Below, in pieces: positions 24,889-31,869 of a stretch of 64,000 nucleotides of DNA. The notes below the pieces were generated by a model. It ran no database searches. It was given only the letters and a program-made list of their open reading frames with translations, and was not told the DNA's origin. The DNA is from Hyalangium gracile. Its GTDB lineage: Bacteria; Myxococcota; Myxococcia; Myxococcales; Myxococcaceae. Position 1 is the stretch's first letter; the number at the start of each line of letters is the position of its first letter. The translations under genes and the position numbers were made by a program. The stretch lies in NCBI RefSeq assembly GCF_020103725.1, contig NZ_JAHXBG010000021.1, positions 62,001-126,000 of the forward strand, in the 5' to 3' direction.

Positions 24889-27800
24889 TCACCGCGCCGG
24901 GGCCCGGGCCTTCTTCTCCTCGCTCGAGGAGAACAGCGCCTTGAGCACACGGCCCGTCGCCGTCTTCGCCTTGCACACCTCGCGAGGCGTTCCCGTGGCG
25001 ACGATGAGGCCTCCCTCGTCGCCGCCCTCGGGACCCAGCTCCACCACGTGGTCCGCCGCGGCGATCACCGACGGGTGGTGCTCGATGACGACGAGCGTGT
25101 CCCCGCGATCCACCAGCCGCCCCAGGAAGGTGATGAGCCGCTCCACGTCACCCAGGTGCAGGCCCGTGGTGGGCTCGTCGAGCACGTAGAGCGTCGGCTC
25201 GTGGCGCGCGGAGGCGGTCAGCTCCGCCGCCAGCTTCAGCCGCTGCGCCTCTCCGCCCGACAGCGTGTTGGAGCCCTGGCCGAGCTGCAGGTAGCCCACG
25301 CCGAGATCCGACAGGCACTCCAGCGGCGCGGACACCTTGGGCAGCGCGCGGAACACCTCCTTCGCCTCGTCGGCGGACAGCCGCAGCACCTCGCCGATGG
25401 TGAGCCCGTGGTAGCGCACCTCCTGCGTGGCGGCGTCGAAGCGCGTCCCACCGCACACCTCGCACGGCGTCACCACGTCCGGGAGAAAGGCCATCTCATG
25501 GGAGATGGCGCCCTGCCCCTCGCAGGCGGTGCACCGGCCTCCGGCGGCGGTGTTGAAGGAGAAGCGCGCCGGGCCGAAGCCCCGGATCTTCGCCTCGGGA
25601 GTGGCCGCGAAGGCCCGACGCAGCTCGTCCCAGATGCCCAGGAACGTCGCCGGCACCGAGCGCGGCGTGCGCCCGATGGGAGACTGATCCACGGCGAGCA
25701 CGCGGGACACCGCCTCCACGCCGTGGAGCGAGTCGAACGGCCCTGGCTTCGGCCCCACGAGCCCCAGCTTCTCCCGGAGCGCCGGGTACATCACCTGGCG
25801 GATGAGCGTGCTCTTGCCCGAGCCCGACACTCCCGAGACGACGGTGAGCCGCCCCACGGGTACCCGCAGGTCCACGCGCTGGAGGTTGTTGGCCCGAGCT
25901 CCCTTCAGCTCGATCCATCGCTCCGGAGCACCCCGCGTGGACGGAGGACGGACCTGGGAGGTCCGCAGCGCCCGCGCGGTGGGCGAGTCCTCCCGCTGGA
26001 GCACCTCCTCCGGCGAGCCCTCCGCGAGGATACGCCCACCGCCCCGTCCGCCCGTAGGGCCCAGATCGATGAGGTGGTCCGCCGCGCGGATGGTGTCCGT
26101 GTCGTGCTCCACGACGAGCACCGAGGAGCCCGTGTCCACGAGCGCCCGCAGGTTGGACAGCAGCCGGTGGGTATCTCGCGGGTGCAGGCCGATGGTGGGC
26201 TCGTCCAGCACGTACAGCGCGCCCGTCAGCCCCGCGCCCAGCTGCGCGGAGAGGCGCAGCCGCTGCATCTCGCCTCCCGAGAGCGTCGCGGCGGCACGGT
26301 CCAGCGAGAGGTAGCCCAGTCCCACGCGGTCCAGGAACTCCAGGCGCCGGACGAGCTCCTGGCGCGAGGGCTCGCCAATGAGCGACCGATCTCCGCGGAA
26401 CTTCCAGCCCTGCACGCGCTCGAGCGTGGCCGTGACGGAGGTCTGCACCACCTCGTGGTAGCGCGCCCCCTCCAGCCTCACCCCGCGCGGCACCGGCGCC
26501 AGCCGTGAGCCCTCGCAGGAGCTGCACGGCTCGGTGTGCCCCTCGGCGATGGCCTCGGCGCCGCCTTCCACGCCAGTGCCCTCGCACGCCTCGCAGCGGC
26601 CCTGCTTCGTGTTGAAGGAGAACCAGCGCGGATCCAGCTCCGGCACGGCCGTCCCACAGCGCGGGCAGGTCCGCTCGGTGGACAGCAGCGTCTCGCCCTT
26701 GGCTCCCCGCACCTTGAGGGCACCCTGCCCCCAGCCCAGCGCCCGATCGAAGACGGCCCGCGACAGCTGCGAGAGCTTCCCCTCGTGCATCACGAGATCG
26801 ATGTCATGCTCGCGGGTCTTCGTCAGCCGCGGCGGGTTGTCGGTGCCGGCGAGCTGCCCATCCACGATGGCGGTGGTGATGCCGGAGCGGGCCGCCGCGG
26901 CGAACAGATCCAGGTAGGTGCCCTTGCGCGCGCGCACCGCGGGAGCCAGCACCGTGCCCTCCCCCTTCATCCCGGTGAGCTGCGCGTACAGCGCATCCGC
27001 CGTGGTGGAGGCAATGGGCGAGTCATCCCTCGGGCAGTGCGGCTGGCCCAGCTTGGCGAAGAGCAGGCGCAGGTAGTGGGCCACCTCGGTGACGGTGGCC
27101 ACGGTGCTCGTCGCGCCCGCGCGCGAGGTGCGCTGCTCCAGCGCCACGGTGGGCGGGATGCCGCTGATGCGCTCCACGTCCGGCCGAGGCATGGTGGGCA
27201 GGAACTGCCGCGCGTACGGCGTGAGCGTCTCCAGGAAGCGGCGCTGCCCCTCCGCGAAGACGACGTCGAACGCCAGCGAGCTCTTGCCCGAGCCGCTCGG
27301 CCCCGTCACCACGGTCATCTTCCCCAGGGGAATCTGGCAGGAGATCTCCTGCAGGTTGTGCTCGCGCGCGTGCTCCACCTCGATGGCCGGGCCGCCCGAG
27401 CTCACCCCGCGCGACTTCGCCGGACGCCGGGTCGCCGTGCCCTCGCCGCGCAGCGCCGCCGCGGTGAGGCCCTTGCCCCGCGCCACCTCCTCCGGAGTGC
27501 CCTCGGCCACCAGCCGCCCACCATGCCGACCGCCTCCCGGGCCCAGATCGATGATCCAGTCCGAGCCGCGCATGACGGTGAGGTCATGGTCCACGACGAT
27601 GACGCTGGCCCCTCGCTCCACCAGCGCGTGCAGCGCGGTGAGCACGTGGCGCACGTCGAGCTCATGGAGCCCGGCGCTCGGCTCGTCGATGAGGAAGAGC
27701 GCGCCCTTCGTCTCGCCGGCCAGGGCCCGCGCCAGCTTCAGGCGCTGCGCCTCGCCGCCGGAGAGCGTGGACAGGGGCTGGCCCAGCGACAGGTAGCCCA

Positions 27801-30186
27801 GGCCGAGCTGCGCCACGGGCCCCAGCGTGCGCTTGAGCACGGCATCCTCCGCGAAGTGCTTCAGCACCTCGTCCACGGTGAGCTCCAGCACGTGCGCCAC
27901 GCTGAAGCCCGAGTGCTGGACGGCGAGCACCTCCTCCTTGAAGCGCCGTCCCCGGCAGGAGGCGCAGCGCAGGGCCACGTCCGCCAGGAACTGCATCTCC
28001 ACCGTCTCGTAGCCCTCGCCCGCGCAGGCCTCGCAGCGGCCCTTGTCCACGTTGAAGGAGAAGTGCGCGGCGGTGAGGCCTCGCACCTCCGCCTCCGGCT
28101 CGCTGGCGAAGCGCTCGCGCAGCCGGTCCCACGCCTTGGTGTACGTGGCGGCGTTGCCTCGCGAGGTGCGCCCCAGCGGAGACTGGTCCACGAAGGTGAT
28201 GGACTTCACGGCCTCGGCCCCCTCCAGCGCCTCCACCTCGCCGGGAGCCTCCACGTCCTTCTCGCCCAGCCCTCGCGCCAGGTGCCGGTACAGCACCTCG
28301 TCCATCAGCGTGCTCTTGCCCGAGCCGCTGGGCCCGGTGATGGCGCACAGCACCCCGAGCGGCACCTTCACGCTGAGCCCCTGGAGGTTGTGGGCCCGGG
28401 CGTTGCGCACGAACAGCTCCCCCGTGCGCTCGCGAGGCGTGTGCTTCGTCACCTCGGAGCTCGCCAGGAGCTGCCCCGTGGGCAGGTCCGTCCGCTTCGC
28501 CAGCGCCTCGGGCGGTCCGTCGAAGCACAGCTTCCCGCCATGCTTGCCCGCCCCGGGCCCCAGCTCCAGCACGCGGTGGGCGGAGCGGATGACGTGCTCG
28601 TCCTGCTCGATGACGAGCGCGATGTTGCCGCGATCAGCCAGCTCCGCCATGGCCTCGGTGAGCGGACGCACGTCACTGGGGTGCAGCCCCACCGTGGGCT
28701 CGTCCAGCACGAAGAGCGCCCCCGTCAGCGACGAGCCGAGCGCCGCCGTGAGCGACACGCGCTGGGCCTCTCCTCCCGAGAGCGTGCGAGCCTGACGGTC
28801 CAGCGTGAGATAGCCGAGCCCCACACGCACCAGGTAGCGCAGCCGGTTGGCCAGCTCCTTGCGCGCCAGCTCGCCCTGGCCGGTGGTGGTGCGCAGGGAC
28901 TGCAGGCGCTCGCAGGCGTCGGACAGCTCCAGCCGGTGCCAGGCCGCCAGGTCCAGCCCGCCCACGCGGTACGCCAGGGCCTGCTCGTTCAGCCGCGCTC
29001 CCTTGCAGCTCTCGCAGAGCGCGTAGGCCCGGTAGCGAGAGAGCAGCACGCGCACGTGCATCTTGTACGTGCGGCTTTCCATCCACCGGAACCACGCGCG
29101 CACGCCGGGGTACGAGCGCCCGCCGTGGTAGTCGCCCTCCCCCTCCAGCACCATCTCCTGCTGCGCCGGGGTGAGCGTGCCCCACGGCTTGTCCAGCGGG
29201 ATGCCCATGGCCCGCGCGTAGCGGTGGAGCATGTTGCGCTCCCAGTCCGAGGTCTTCCCGCTCCACGGCCGGATGGCGCCCTGCGCCAGGCTCAGCGCGG
29301 GGTTGGGGATGACCTTGGCCCAGTCGATGCCGATGGTGCGCCCGAAGCCTCGACACGTGGCGCACGCGCCCGTGGCGGACTGGTAGCTGAACAGGCCCGG
29401 CCGCGCGGGCTCGAACTCGCGCGCGCACTCCGGGCACACGAGTCCTCGGCGGAGACGCTGGGTGGCCCCTCCGGGGAGGAACACCCGGGCCTCACCGTCA
29501 CCTCGCACCCACGCGTCCTCCACGGCCTGGGTGACGCGGGACAGCTGCGAGCCCGCCAGCTTCACCCGGTCCACCACCACCTGGGCGATGCCCACCGCGT
29601 CCGTGGCCTCGCCCGGCCGTAGCGACTCCAACTCACGCACCTCGCCCTGCACGAGGAGCCGGTGGTAGCCGTCCTTGAGCAGCCGCGTGCGCACATCGAG
29701 GAACTCGGCGGTGCCGGAGATGCGCACCGGGAAGGTGAAGATGGCCTGCGCCTCCGGGTGCGCGGCGATGACGGACGAGGCGGCTACGCGCGCATCGGTG
29801 CGCACCGCCTCCACGCCACACGCGGAGCACACGGGCATGGCCTCGCGGGTGAAGAGCGCGGAGAGGTAGGCCTCCACATCGGCCATCGTGGCCACGGTGG
29901 AGCGCGAGCTCTTCACCGGCGCGCGGCGATCCACCGCCACGCCGGCCGCCACCGGCTCGAGCGTGTCCATGGGCGGCCGCTCCAGCCGCTCGAGGAACTG
30001 GCGAGCGTACGGGCTGAAGCTCTCGACGAAGCGGCGCTGACCCTCGGCATACAAGGTGTCGAGCGCCAGGCTCGACTTGCCTGCCCCGGACACACCCGTG
30101 ATGCAGACGAGCTCTCCCTCGGAGAGATCCACGGAGAGCGACTGGAGGTTATGGGTACGGGCGCCGACGAGGTGCGTCTTGTGCAT
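24889..30186 (-). CDS. uvrA: Tandem (twin) UvrA excinuclease subunit
   Basis: A 1765-residue protein about twice the usual UvrA length (about 940). It is two UvrA units head-to-tail, roughly 1-905 and 925-1765. Four ABC cores are present, with Walker A lysines at 37, 624, 968 and 1458, and each has an LSGGEAQR- or LSGGEMQR-type signature. Each unit keeps the distal zinc module (CEACAGEGY...CASC; CTACEGQG...CEVC) and an insertion region with further CxxC pairs. UvrA recognises bulky DNA lesions as a dimer and loads UvrB. A tandem form may pre-assemble that dimer intramolecularly. It could also be a UvrA2-like damage or drug-tolerance ATPase. No uvrB or uvrC is adjacent. Confidence 0.93.
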   Translation of the reverse strand: MHKTHLVGARTHNLQSLSVDLSEGELVCITGVSGAGKSSLALDTLYAEGQRRFVESFSPYARQFLERLERPPMDTLEPVAAGVAVDRRAPVKSSRSTVATMADVEAYLSALFTREAMPVCSACGVEAVRTDARVAASSVIAAHPEAQAIFTFPVRISGTAEFLDVRTRLLKDGYHRLLVQGEVRELESLRPGEATDAVGIAQVVVDRVKLAGSQLSRVTQAVEDAWVRGDGEARVFLPGGATQRLRRGLVCPECAREFEPARPGLFSYQSATGACATCRGFGRTIGIDWAKVIPNPALSLAQGAIRPWSGKTSDWERNMLHRYARAMGIPLDKPWGTLTPAQQEMVLEGEGDYHGGRSYPGVRAWFRWMESRTYKMHVRVLLSRYRAYALCESCKGARLNEQALAYRVGGLDLAAWHRLELSDACERLQSLRTTTGQGELARKELANRLRYLVRVGLGYLTLDRQARTLSGGEAQRVSLTAALGSSLTGALFVLDEPTVGLHPSDVRPLTEAMAELADRGNIALVIEQDEHVIRSAHRVLELGPGAGKHGGKLCFDGPPEALAKRTDLPTGQLLASSEVTKHTPRERTGELFVRNARAHNLQGLSVKVPLGVLCAITGPSGSGKSTLMDEVLYRHLARGLGEKDVEAPGEVEALEGAEAVKSITFVDQSPLGRTSRGNAATYTKAWDRLRERFASEPEAEVRGLTAAHFSFNVDKGRCEACAGEGYETVEMQFLADVALRCASCRGRRFKEEVLAVQHSGFSVAHVLELTVDEVLKHFAEDAVLKRTLGPVAQLGLGYLSLGQPLSTLSGGEAQRLKLARALAGETKGALFLIDEPSAGLHELDVRHVLTALHALVERGASVIVVDHDLTVMRGSDWIIDLGPGGGRHGGRLVAEGTPEEVARGKGLTAAALRGEGTATRRPAKSRGVSSGGPAIEVEHAREHNLQEISCQIPLGKMTVVTGPSGSGKSSLAFDVVFAEGQRRFLETLTPYARQFLPTMPRPDVERISGIPPTVALEQRTSRAGATSTVATVTEVAHYLRLLFAKLGQPHCPRDDSPIASTTADALYAQLTGMKGEGTVLAPAVRARKGTYLDLFAAAARSGITTAIVDGQLAGTDNPPRLTKTREHDIDLVMHEGKLSQLSRAVFDRALGWGQGALKVRGAKGETLLSTERTCPRCGTAVPELDPRWFSFNTKQGRCEACEGTGVEGGAEAIAEGHTEPCSSCEGSRLAPVPRGVRLEGARYHEVVQTSVTATLERVQGWKFRGDRSLIGEPSRQELVRRLEFLDRVGLGYLSLDRAAATLSGGEMQRLRLSAQLGAGLTGALYVLDEPTIGLHPRDTHRLLSNLRALVDTGSSVLVVEHDTDTIRAADHLIDLGPTGGRGGGRILAEGSPEEVLQREDSPTARALRTSQVRPPSTRGAPERWIELKGARANNLQRVDLRVPVGRLTVVSGVSGSGKSTLIRQVMYPALREKLGLVGPKPGPFDSLHGVEAVSRVLAVDQSPIGRTPRSVPATFLGIWDELRRAFAATPEAKIRGFGPARFSFNTAAGGRCTACEGQGAISHEMAFLPDVVTPCEVCGGTRFDAATQEVRYHGLTIGEVLRLSADEAKEVFRALPKVSAPLECLSDLGVGYLQLGQGSNTLSGGEAQRLKLAAELTASARHEPTLYVLDEPTTGLHLGDVERLITFLGRLVDRGDTLVVIEHHPSVIAAADHVVELGPEGGDEGGLIVATGTPREVCKAKTATGRVLKALFSSSEEKKARAPAR

Positions 30187-30233: not shown

Positions 30234-31367
30234 CTACAGGTTGGATTTCCGAGTGGACGAAGGCTCGCTCCCCCCCTCGTACCAGGTGGCCTCCGGCTCC
30301 TGGACGTGGAGCGCCAGGTCCCTCTGGAGCCGGTGGAAGGCGGCCTCCTTCACCTCCGCGTAGCGGACGGAGACGCGCTCCGGGCTCCAGTCGAAATCCA
30401 CGCTCCCCTGCCGCAGGAACTCCGAGAAGGCGTCCAGCAGGGGCTGCCGCGTCGCGTTCTCCACGAAGAGGAACTGCCCGGCCTGGTTGACCTCGAGGAA
30501 GACATAGCGGCCGTCCGGCCGGACGATGAAGTCGAAGCAGCCGAAGACGATGTCCAGCCCGCGCATCAGCGCGAAGCACCGCGCGGCCACCTCGGCGGGC
30601 AGCTCGAACGGCTCCATCCTCAGCTCGTCGGGGTCCGCCCGGCGCCAGTCGAGCCGCCCCTCCCGCGTCTCTTGCGAGAGCAGCTTCGCCGCGAACGCGC
30701 GCCGCCCCATCATCGTGACGCGCAGCTCGAAGGCCTTGGGCACCAGCGCCTGGTAGATGCCCGGCACCATGGAGAGCAGCTCATCCTCCACCAGCTGCGC
30801 CTCGGTGAGCCGGCTCGTGTACGTCATGTAGTACTTCGCATCGTCCTTCCAGGCGGTCATCTTGAAGGGCTTGTAGGCAATCTGCCCGCCGTGCTCGCGG
30901 AGGAAGGCGCGAATCTCCCCCGGATCATTGGTGTAGACGGTGTCCGGCGCCTCCAGGCCCACCTCGAGCGCGAGCTGGTGCTGCCTCAGCTTGCTGGTCC
31001 GCTCGACGGCGCGGTGCGGGTTCACCCAGAAGGCCTCGGGCGCGAGCGTGTCGAGGAGCGACCGCCGGAACGTCCCACACCCCAGCTCCACGTACGCGTG
31101 GTCCGCGGGGTGGATGCGCCGCGGGTCGATGACCAGCGCGGGCCTCCGGTTCCACACGGTGCCGATCGCCTGCTCGGCGAGGTCCAGCTCAGGGCCCCGC
31201 AGGCGTACCGAGCGGCGACCGCGCTCGAAGCGCACCGTCTCCGTGGCGCGCGTGGGGAAGTCCGAGGTGTGCCAGAGCAGGTGCGCCACGCCCCTGCGGG
31301 CAAGCGCCTCGGCGACGGCGGTGGAGTGGATGTCGTTGGGTCGGGAGAGGATGAGGACGGTCTTCAT
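30234..31367 (-). CDS. MvdD-like ATP-grasp ligase (graspetide macrocyclase)
   Basis: A 377-residue ATP-grasp protein of the RiPP maturase type. Diagnostic features are the N-terminal pre-grasp domain ending in TVWNRRP (70-76), the central AYKPFKMTAWKDDAKYYMTY (Lys166), VPKAFELRVTMMGRRAFAAKL, FDFIVRPDGRYVFLEVNQAG (Asp279, Glu292, Asn294) and QFLFVE. In this family the enzyme phosphorylates Asp/Glu side chains of a bound precursor and joins them to Thr/Ser (ester) or Lys (amide), giving microviridin/graspetide macrocycles. A matching precursor gene lies 107 bases upstream on the same strand. ATG 31367 starts the canonical MKTVLILSRPND N-terminus. No acetyltransferase, protease or exporter gene is adjacent. 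Confidence 0.92.
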   Translation of the reverse strand: MKTVLILSRPNDIHSTAVAEALARRGVAHLLWHTSDFPTRATETVRFERGRRSVRLRGPELDLAEQAIGTVWNRRPALVIDPRRIHPADHAYVELGCGTFRRSLLDTLAPEAFWVNPHRAVERTSKLRQHQLALEVGLEAPDTVYTNDPGEIRAFLREHGGQIAYKPFKMTAWKDDAKYYMTYTSRLTEAQLVEDELLSMVPGIYQALVPKAFELRVTMMGRRAFAAKLLSQETREGRLDWRRADPDELRMEPFELPAEVAARCFALMRGLDIVFGCFDFIVRPDGRYVFLEVNQAGQFLFVENATRQPLLDAFSEFLRQGSVDFDWSPERVSVRYAEVKEAAFHRLQRDLALHVQEPEATWYEGGSEPSSTRKSNL

Positions 31368-31402
31368 GGCGAGGCTCGGGTGGAAGGGCGCGGGTGGCAC
31401 CC

Positions 31403-31430
31403 GGCCGGAGAGAGGGCGTGCTCTCCGGCC
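31403..31430 (-). terminator. Perfect 10-bp hairpin between precursor and ligase genes (attenuator candidate)
   Basis: GGCCGGAGAG (31403-31412) and CTCTCCGGCC (31421-31430) form a perfect 10-bp stem with an 8-base loop, about 45 bases after the precursor stop and 35 before the ligase ATG. Its place suggests partial termination or transcript stabilisation, giving more precursor than ligase mRNA. No U tract follows, so a processing or stability role is as likely as intrinsic termination. Confidence 0.6.
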
Positions 31431-31474
31431 AGGTGTCTGCAAGGAGTGACAGGGACTCTCGAGGGCCTGGGCCC

Positions 31475-31672
31475 TCAGTCGCCGTCGGTCTGCCCCGGGC
31501 TGCCTCCGGTGAGGTCCGGGTGGCCGTGCGGATCCCGGGTTCGCCCGGCCGTCGCCTCCGCGAGCACCGGTCCCAGGTAGCCGCCGCGGACCTGCTCCAG
31601 CTCCTCGGCCAGCACGCGCCCGAGCACGCGCCCCGGCTGCCTCGTTCCCGTCTGCATCTCCAGCTTCTTCAT
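31475..31672 (-). CDS. Graspetide-type RiPP precursor peptide with double-glycine leader
   Basis: A 65-residue peptide starting MKKLEMQTGTRQPG. Residues 21-31 (LAEELEQVRGG) match the classical double-glycine leader motif ELxxVxGG cut by C39 peptidases, so the mature part would be residues 32-65. That core has ester acceptors Asp47, Asp53, Asp63 and Asp65 and Glu39, and donors Thr41, Thr45, Thr55, Ser58 and Thr62. There is no Lys in the core, so any rings should be esters rather than amides. The final segment is Gly/Pro-rich (HPDLTGGSPGQTDGD). A strong GGAGGT lies 6 bases before the ATG. The ATP-grasp ligase follows on the same strand. Family assignment is inferred from context plus composition; I do not recognise an exact known core consensus. 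Confidence 0.78.
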   Translation of the reverse strand: MKKLEMQTGTRQPGRVLGRVLAEELEQVRGGYLGPVLAEATAGRTRDPHGHPDLTGGSPGQTDGD

Positions 31673-31674
31673 GT

Positions 31675-31711
31675 GACACCTCCGTGTCGAATGGCTCCTC
31701 CATGGAGCCAT
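31675..31711 (-). promoter_or_regulatory. Paired hairpins in the precursor 5' leader, enclosing the ribosome binding site
   Basis: Two inverted repeats precede the precursor ATG (31672). GACAC (31675-31679) and GTGTC (31684-31688) form a 5-bp stem whose 4-base loop is the GGAG of the ribosome binding site. Immediately upstream, ATGGCTCC (31691-31698) and GGAGCCAT (31704-31711) form a perfect 8-bp stem with a 5-base loop. This could be translational control or mRNA protection, or the outer repeat could be a repressor operator. Confidence 0.45.
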
Positions 31712-31841
31712 GAGGGACTACGGAGGCACTCGCGAAGTGGATGGCACCGGAAAAGAGGCCGCCGGGGACTGCCCTCCCTTCGAGGCGCGAGCGCAAGGCC
31801 CGACCGCACGCCTGCCGATACCCTGGCGCTGAAATGACGAA

Positions 31842-31869
31842 GGGCCGCCACGCTCGCGCGTGACGGCCC
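31842..31869 (-). terminator. Terminator of the TonB receptor operon
   Basis: An imperfect hairpin lies 26 bases after the receptor stop: GGGCCG/CGGCCC outer stem (31842-31847, 31864-31869), one mismatch, then CACGC/GCGTG with a 4-base loop. Read on the minus strand it is followed by TTCGTCATTTC, a weak T-rich tail. The structure, tail and position fit intrinsic termination, just upstream of the graspetide locus. Confidence 0.65.

Follow-up and report, generated by a model that had tools for sequence, protein, structure and literature searches.

Does a small ORF lying beside a single ATP-grasp gene in Hyalangium gracile encode the precursor of a graspetide, and if so, of which kind? The window analyzed here is a 64,000-nucleotide stretch of NZ_JAHXBG010000021.1, which is contig C21 of the 11.7-Mb genome. 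Both ORFs proposed in the initial annotation were found in the window on the minus strand. The precursor ORF (31475..31672, 65 aa) starts with ATG downstream of a Shine-Dalgarno sequence, CGGAGG. The ATP-grasp ORF (30234..31367, minus strand, 377 aa) starts 107 bp downstream of the precursor ORF, and the gap between the two is 87–107 bp across the orthologous loci. Among the Myxococcota genomes searched, five have the pair: H. gracile, Hyalangium versicolor (G006), Archangium lansinium (G059), a Myxococcaceae MAG (G002), and G020. It is very probable that this pair is a minimal graspetide biosynthetic cassette; co-conservation, selection, structure, and the similarity of the leader to those of sister loci all support the assignment of a graspetide-type precursor and ligase.

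The precursor peptide and its conserved core

A profile made from the five precursors gave convincing matches only in the same five of 145 genomes of the order (E of 5e-33 or better). Matches in G065, G068, G101, and G122 (E of about 1e-3) were partial and lay inside long frames, and were discarded as noise. The precursor and the ligase always occur together, in 5/5 genomes with orthologues and convincingly in none of the 140 others of the order. An orthologous ligase lacking the precursor ORF beside it, which the initial annotation had named as evidence against itself, was not found, and no genome without the ligase has the precursor. Thus, an adjacent small peptide with a leader and a donor/acceptor core, as expected of the graspetide class, is present at all five orthologous loci. 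The precursor matched no family in Pfam or NCBIfam.

Is the precursor ORF maintained as a protein? Synonymous and non-synonymous differences were counted over all pairs of the five orthologues. The pN/pS ratio was 0.45 for the whole frame and 1.35–1.37 for two wrong frames. By part, it was 0.17 for the leader (from PGRV to GG), 0.86 for the linker, and 0.36 for the core from about residue 41. Thus, the ORF is maintained as a protein, in which a free linker separates two constrained modules, the leader and the core. The leader (residues 1–31; 31580..31672, minus strand) carries the conserved sequence PGRVLGRVLAEELxxVRGG. As had been described, LAEELEQVRGG ends at residue 31 and the tail of residues 32–65 is free of Lys. 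The VRGG end is invariant in all five orthologues and is of the ELxxVxGG type known from double-glycine RiPPs. The core had been placed at residues 32–65; this is the tail after the double glycine, but the functional core is probably residues 41–65, since residues 32–40 belong to the free linker as judged by pN/pS.

The search for homologous precursors that the initial annotation had proposed yielded a core with conserved spacing. The core (residues 41–65; 31478..31552, minus strand) reads T-x3-T-x7-D-x-T-x6-[ST]-D-x-D up to the C-terminus, with identical spacing in the five orthologues. The hydroxyl donors T41, T45, and T55 and the carboxylate acceptors D53, D63, and D65 are invariant, position 62 is Thr or Ser, and D47 varies. 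The only Lys in any of the five cores, that of G002, sits at a variable position (R/R/K/V/V). Therefore, ester-only chemistry is expected for the five-genome family, and the earlier prediction of ester-only rings holds at the family level. The conserved donors and acceptors suggest about three ester rings, possibly four, three corresponding to a predicted mass change of −54 Da; five orthologues limit how precisely the ring residues can be assigned. The pairs T45-D53 and T55-D63 with an outer pair T41-D65 would make the preferred topology, which I offer as a long shot.

The core matched none of the few published graspetide motifs with which it was compared (two from PMC8939145, and among the others motifs from PMC9576775). 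By profile score, the ligase closest to the five is L027 from a Myxococcales MAG (39% identity). It is preceded by a precursor, MKNERILSFNMSQQLTDDDLEGVSAAGFSSHFTGNGTYQKGSGWDGSIDVSIDP, that has T-x3-T-x7-D-x-[ST] in common with the five-genome core. Shuffling of the L027 peptide yields this pattern in 0.10–0.16% of trials. Since the pattern was spotted after the fact, it is supportive but not decisive.

The ligase and its lineage

The ATP-grasp protein had been called MvdD-like. The landmarks on which this was based are present, VWNRRP at residues 71–76 and LEVNQAG at residues 291–297. The ligase matches Pfam PF21068 slightly above the cut-off, and it scores 215, 172, and 161 bits against NCBIfam TIGR04187, TIGR04185, and TIGR04184, all below the curated cut-offs of 350, 425, and 475. 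Thus, these models assign it to the RiPP ATP-grasp families, and the match to MvdD-like enzymes is real but distant. A profile of the ligase run over 195 Myxococcota genomes retrieved the same five at 772–810 bits, and the next score was 235. When 48 ligases were placed in a tree, the five grouped into one clade with strong support, whose sister group is L027 plus two ligases from Acidobacteriota (support 95/87). This clade lies away from the microviridin-type ligases, among them those of the second graspetide locus of H. gracile itself. Because the ligase branches apart from the microviridin-type enzymes, the label MvdD-like is too loose.

An AlphaFold model of the ligase was made from 45 ligases (pLDDT 91.3, pTM 0.90). 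The best match among solved structures was MdnC (Z 30.9, 304 residues, 2.3 Å), and it was followed by other graspetide-type ligases, namely AMdnB (Z 30.8), CdnC (29.5), MdnB (28.2), PruB (27.5), and PsnB (26.8). RimK (Z 21.8) and LysX (Z 21.2) rank below these six, and Foldseek agrees. Residues K166, R216, D279, E292, and N294 are invariant across the 45 ligases, and K126 is nearly so. With fold and sequence matches above RimK and intact catalytic residues, the enzyme has what marks a graspetide-type ligase. The acidic pair of MdnC was looked for and is not conserved: the Glu/Asp pair that binds the leader in the microviridin ligase MdnC corresponds to A190/Q191 here. Thus, leader binding would differ in detail from that of the microviridins.

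The model has an additional C-terminal part. Residues 319–363, which include a confident helix at residues 336–353, fall outside the part aligned to the solved macrocyclases, whose alignments mostly span residues 1–324. The pN/pS ratio is 0.37 for the ligase and 0.47 for its C-terminal tail, indicating that the tail is constrained.

How do the related loci compare? At the sister Acidobacteriota loci, precursors such as MKKNETHTGRILGRRLARELTREELDKAAGG-VQCWTLTDPPDGPYRDH resemble those of the five in the leader but not in the core. The same leader type, RILxRRLAR.LT..EL...GG, was also seen with unrelated cores at the myxobacterial and Acidobacteriota loci L028:7-159, L029, and L009. It is known that graspetide leaders follow the ligase while the cores diversify (PMC8939145). 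The second graspetide locus of H. gracile (L002/L003, C13:187142-192090) is of the microviridin type with two tandem ATP-grasp ligases, and its precursor, MKKTAADKAQQKGKKPFFARLLEAQDLEQASGGTTFQTKKYPSDSDEFFTMKYPSDSDEDFSK, has two KYPSDSDE cores. Small precursors beside single ligases were also observed at L011, L013, L010, L058, and L014 (for example, ...LATGGRLAVQDLACTCPNTCGPCGPDDH and ...FVTGGAGPTQGGTTSDTGDTDQ), which form their own ligase clade.

Candidate RNA elements, insertion sites, and alternative explanations

Two potential regulatory elements accompany the pair. Between the two ORFs lies a hairpin (31398..31435, minus strand) with a 15-bp stem and no U-run. In the alignment of five species, it shows four compensatory pairs, and 98.7% of the cells are paired, compared with 37–52% when the partners are slid. 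Since a U-run is lacking, I infer its role rather than read it from the sequence: partial termination or 3′-end stabilization would provide more precursor than ligase. Upstream of the precursor ORF is a nested inverted repeat (31678..31727, minus strand), whose outer arm pairs with the Shine-Dalgarno sequence and would sequester it as RNA. Its predicted minimum free energy is −32.6 kcal/mol (z −3.8) with the Shine-Dalgarno sequence in the stem, and the sequence is conserved in four of the five species. A single compensatory pair was found, which does not demonstrate RNA control, and the repeat could instead be a DNA operator.

Are the neighboring genes part of the unit? In H. gracile, H. versicolor, and G020, the pair adjoins a uvrA-like gene and a TonB-receptor gene on the same strand. 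The peptide might therefore serve one of these neighbors, for example as a ligand of the receptor. However, in four congeners (G001, G003, G004, and G005), the uvrA-like gene directly adjoins the TonB receptor and the region between them, a unit of about 1.6 kb, is missing. Homology in G002 and A. lansinium is limited to the block corresponding to 30262-31744 or 30274-31673, with unrelated surroundings, and the uvrA gene of G002 lacks the insertion. These empty sites, together with the occurrence of the pair elsewhere in two relatives, define the unit as the two genes without the neighbors; they speak strongly against the association and make a service to the neighbors very improbable. The pair was inserted independently at different sites. 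In the window, the insertion extends approximately from 30247 to 31842 (minus strand), between the end of the TonB-receptor gene and the start of the uvrA-like gene. The empty-site sequence ATCCAACCTG...GCTTGGCGAGAGCCAAT occurs in H. gracile itself, where it overlaps the end of the ligase gene. Thus, the last ligase codons (SNL and stop) of H. gracile and H. versicolor appear to be host DNA. As for the uvrA-like gene (24889-30186 of the window, 1765 aa), it seems to contain two UvrA copies in tandem and has a homologue in 7/7 genomes of the genus searched.

Two further alternatives concern the enzyme and the state of the locus. The enzyme might instead add an amino acid, polyglutamate, or a guanidino acid to the peptide, or close it head-to-tail, as RimK, LysX, and PGM1-type relatives do. 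Such reactions are known in the same superfamily (Makarova 2022, PMC8939145), and RimK and LysX come next in the structural ranking. Nevertheless, the six graspetide-type ligases exceed RimK by 5–9 Z units, and the core keeps several hydroxyl donors and carboxylates at set intervals, which other ligations would not require, making this explanation improbable. That the pair is a leftover that has decayed or lost its function, as its patchy distribution and the unlinked exporter might suggest, is the least probable of all: both genes are under purifying selection, the catalytic residues are intact, the core spacing is identical in five genomes, the Shine-Dalgarno sequence is conserved, and the intergenic hairpin covaries.

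Maturation and place among the graspetides

How would the graspetide cassette work? In the graspetide class, phosphorylation is followed by hydroxyl attack (PMC13097080). The leader helix PGRVLGRVLAEEL would dock on the ligase, which would use ATP to phosphorylate the side chains of core Asp residues, and the Thr/Ser hydroxyls would then attack the phosphorylated Asp residues to form about three side-chain macrolactones. A C39-ABC exporter encoded elsewhere would cut after RGG and export the product. The pair has no linked gene for tailoring, export, or immunity. The lack of an adjacent exporter or C39 peptidase noted in the initial annotation was borne out, with no C39 domain on contig C21 and six matches elsewhere in the genome. 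The cluster-encoded C39-ABC exporter typical of PCAT-exported RiPPs is absent from the contig. Contigs C2, C22, and C23 encode three NHLM-like C39-ABC exporters in trans, and maturation in trans, as had been proposed, is plausible. ATP-grasp loci typically do not encode a double-glycine peptidase (Makarova et al., PMC8939145).

Which known graspetides does the pair resemble? It shares with the microviridins (MdnB/MdnC, group 1) the ATP-grasp macrocyclase fold, a leader helix before a GG-type site, and hydroxyl donors with carboxylate acceptors. In contrast, it lacks the TxKxPSD core, a conserved Lys, and the PFFAR leader, and it has a single ligase on a separate branch. The TxKxPSDxx[DE][DE] core was matched in 0/5 orthologues, the leader is PGRVLGRVLAEEL, and one ligase is present instead of two. 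Thus, core, leader, ligase number, and tree rule out membership in the microviridins. Plesiocin (PsnB), which comes from a myxobacterium, Plesiocystis, and thuringinin likewise use one ligase for all rings and are ester-only, as is predicted here; this pair differs in lacking the TTxxxxEE repeat, in having Asp and not Glu acceptors and a single core, and in its 23–24% identity to PsnB.

The graspimiditides (fuscimiditide/ThfB, group 13) also have Thr donors four apart (Thr3/Thr7 in fuscimiditide), Asp acceptors, and a long loop (PMC12291112), while this pair has no linked isoaspartyl methyltransferase, a DxD plus an internal D as acceptors, another leader, and a host outside the Actinomycetota. 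Rosaritide (MirB, group 21) is similar in its three macrolactones, its Asp acceptors in a C-terminal DxDxD, and its TIGR04187-type ligase (PMC13097080), but the present pair has no PPIase partner, no linked exporter, and a different donor spacing.

Is this a new kind of graspetide? More than 20,000 members have been predicted, with groups numbered to 43 (PMC13097080), and the class was sorted into 174 families in PMC8939145. In the genomes searched here, the five-genome family falls below the threshold of 20 members for new numbered groups. The best reading of the sequences is a small, apparently undescribed, presumably ester-only family of the known graspetide class and not a new class, with a core unlike the few motifs compared and possibly a new ring topology. 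A further-reaching reading, to which I would give slightly less than an even chance, is a new graspetide group that combines a new ester-ring topology, a ligase lineage of its own that bears an additional C-terminal helix, a movable two-gene cassette, and a precursor-to-ligase ratio set by the hairpin. Its rings would link T45 to D53 and T55 to D63 (i to i+8), with an outer T41-D65 ring closing them, or would combine the three invariant donors and acceptors in some other way. No paper on graspetides in Hyalangium or Archangium was among the hits listed in the literature search.

Natural variation in this small, self-contained family pinpoints the likely ring residues, and the topology is therefore testable in Escherichia coli with two genes. 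The empty and alternative sites provide a clear example of a RiPP cassette, two genes long, that moves from one genome to another. The graspetides of known activity are protease inhibitors. By class precedent, the mature peptide may inhibit a serine protease, and protease inhibition would be a plausible tool for predatory myxobacteria.
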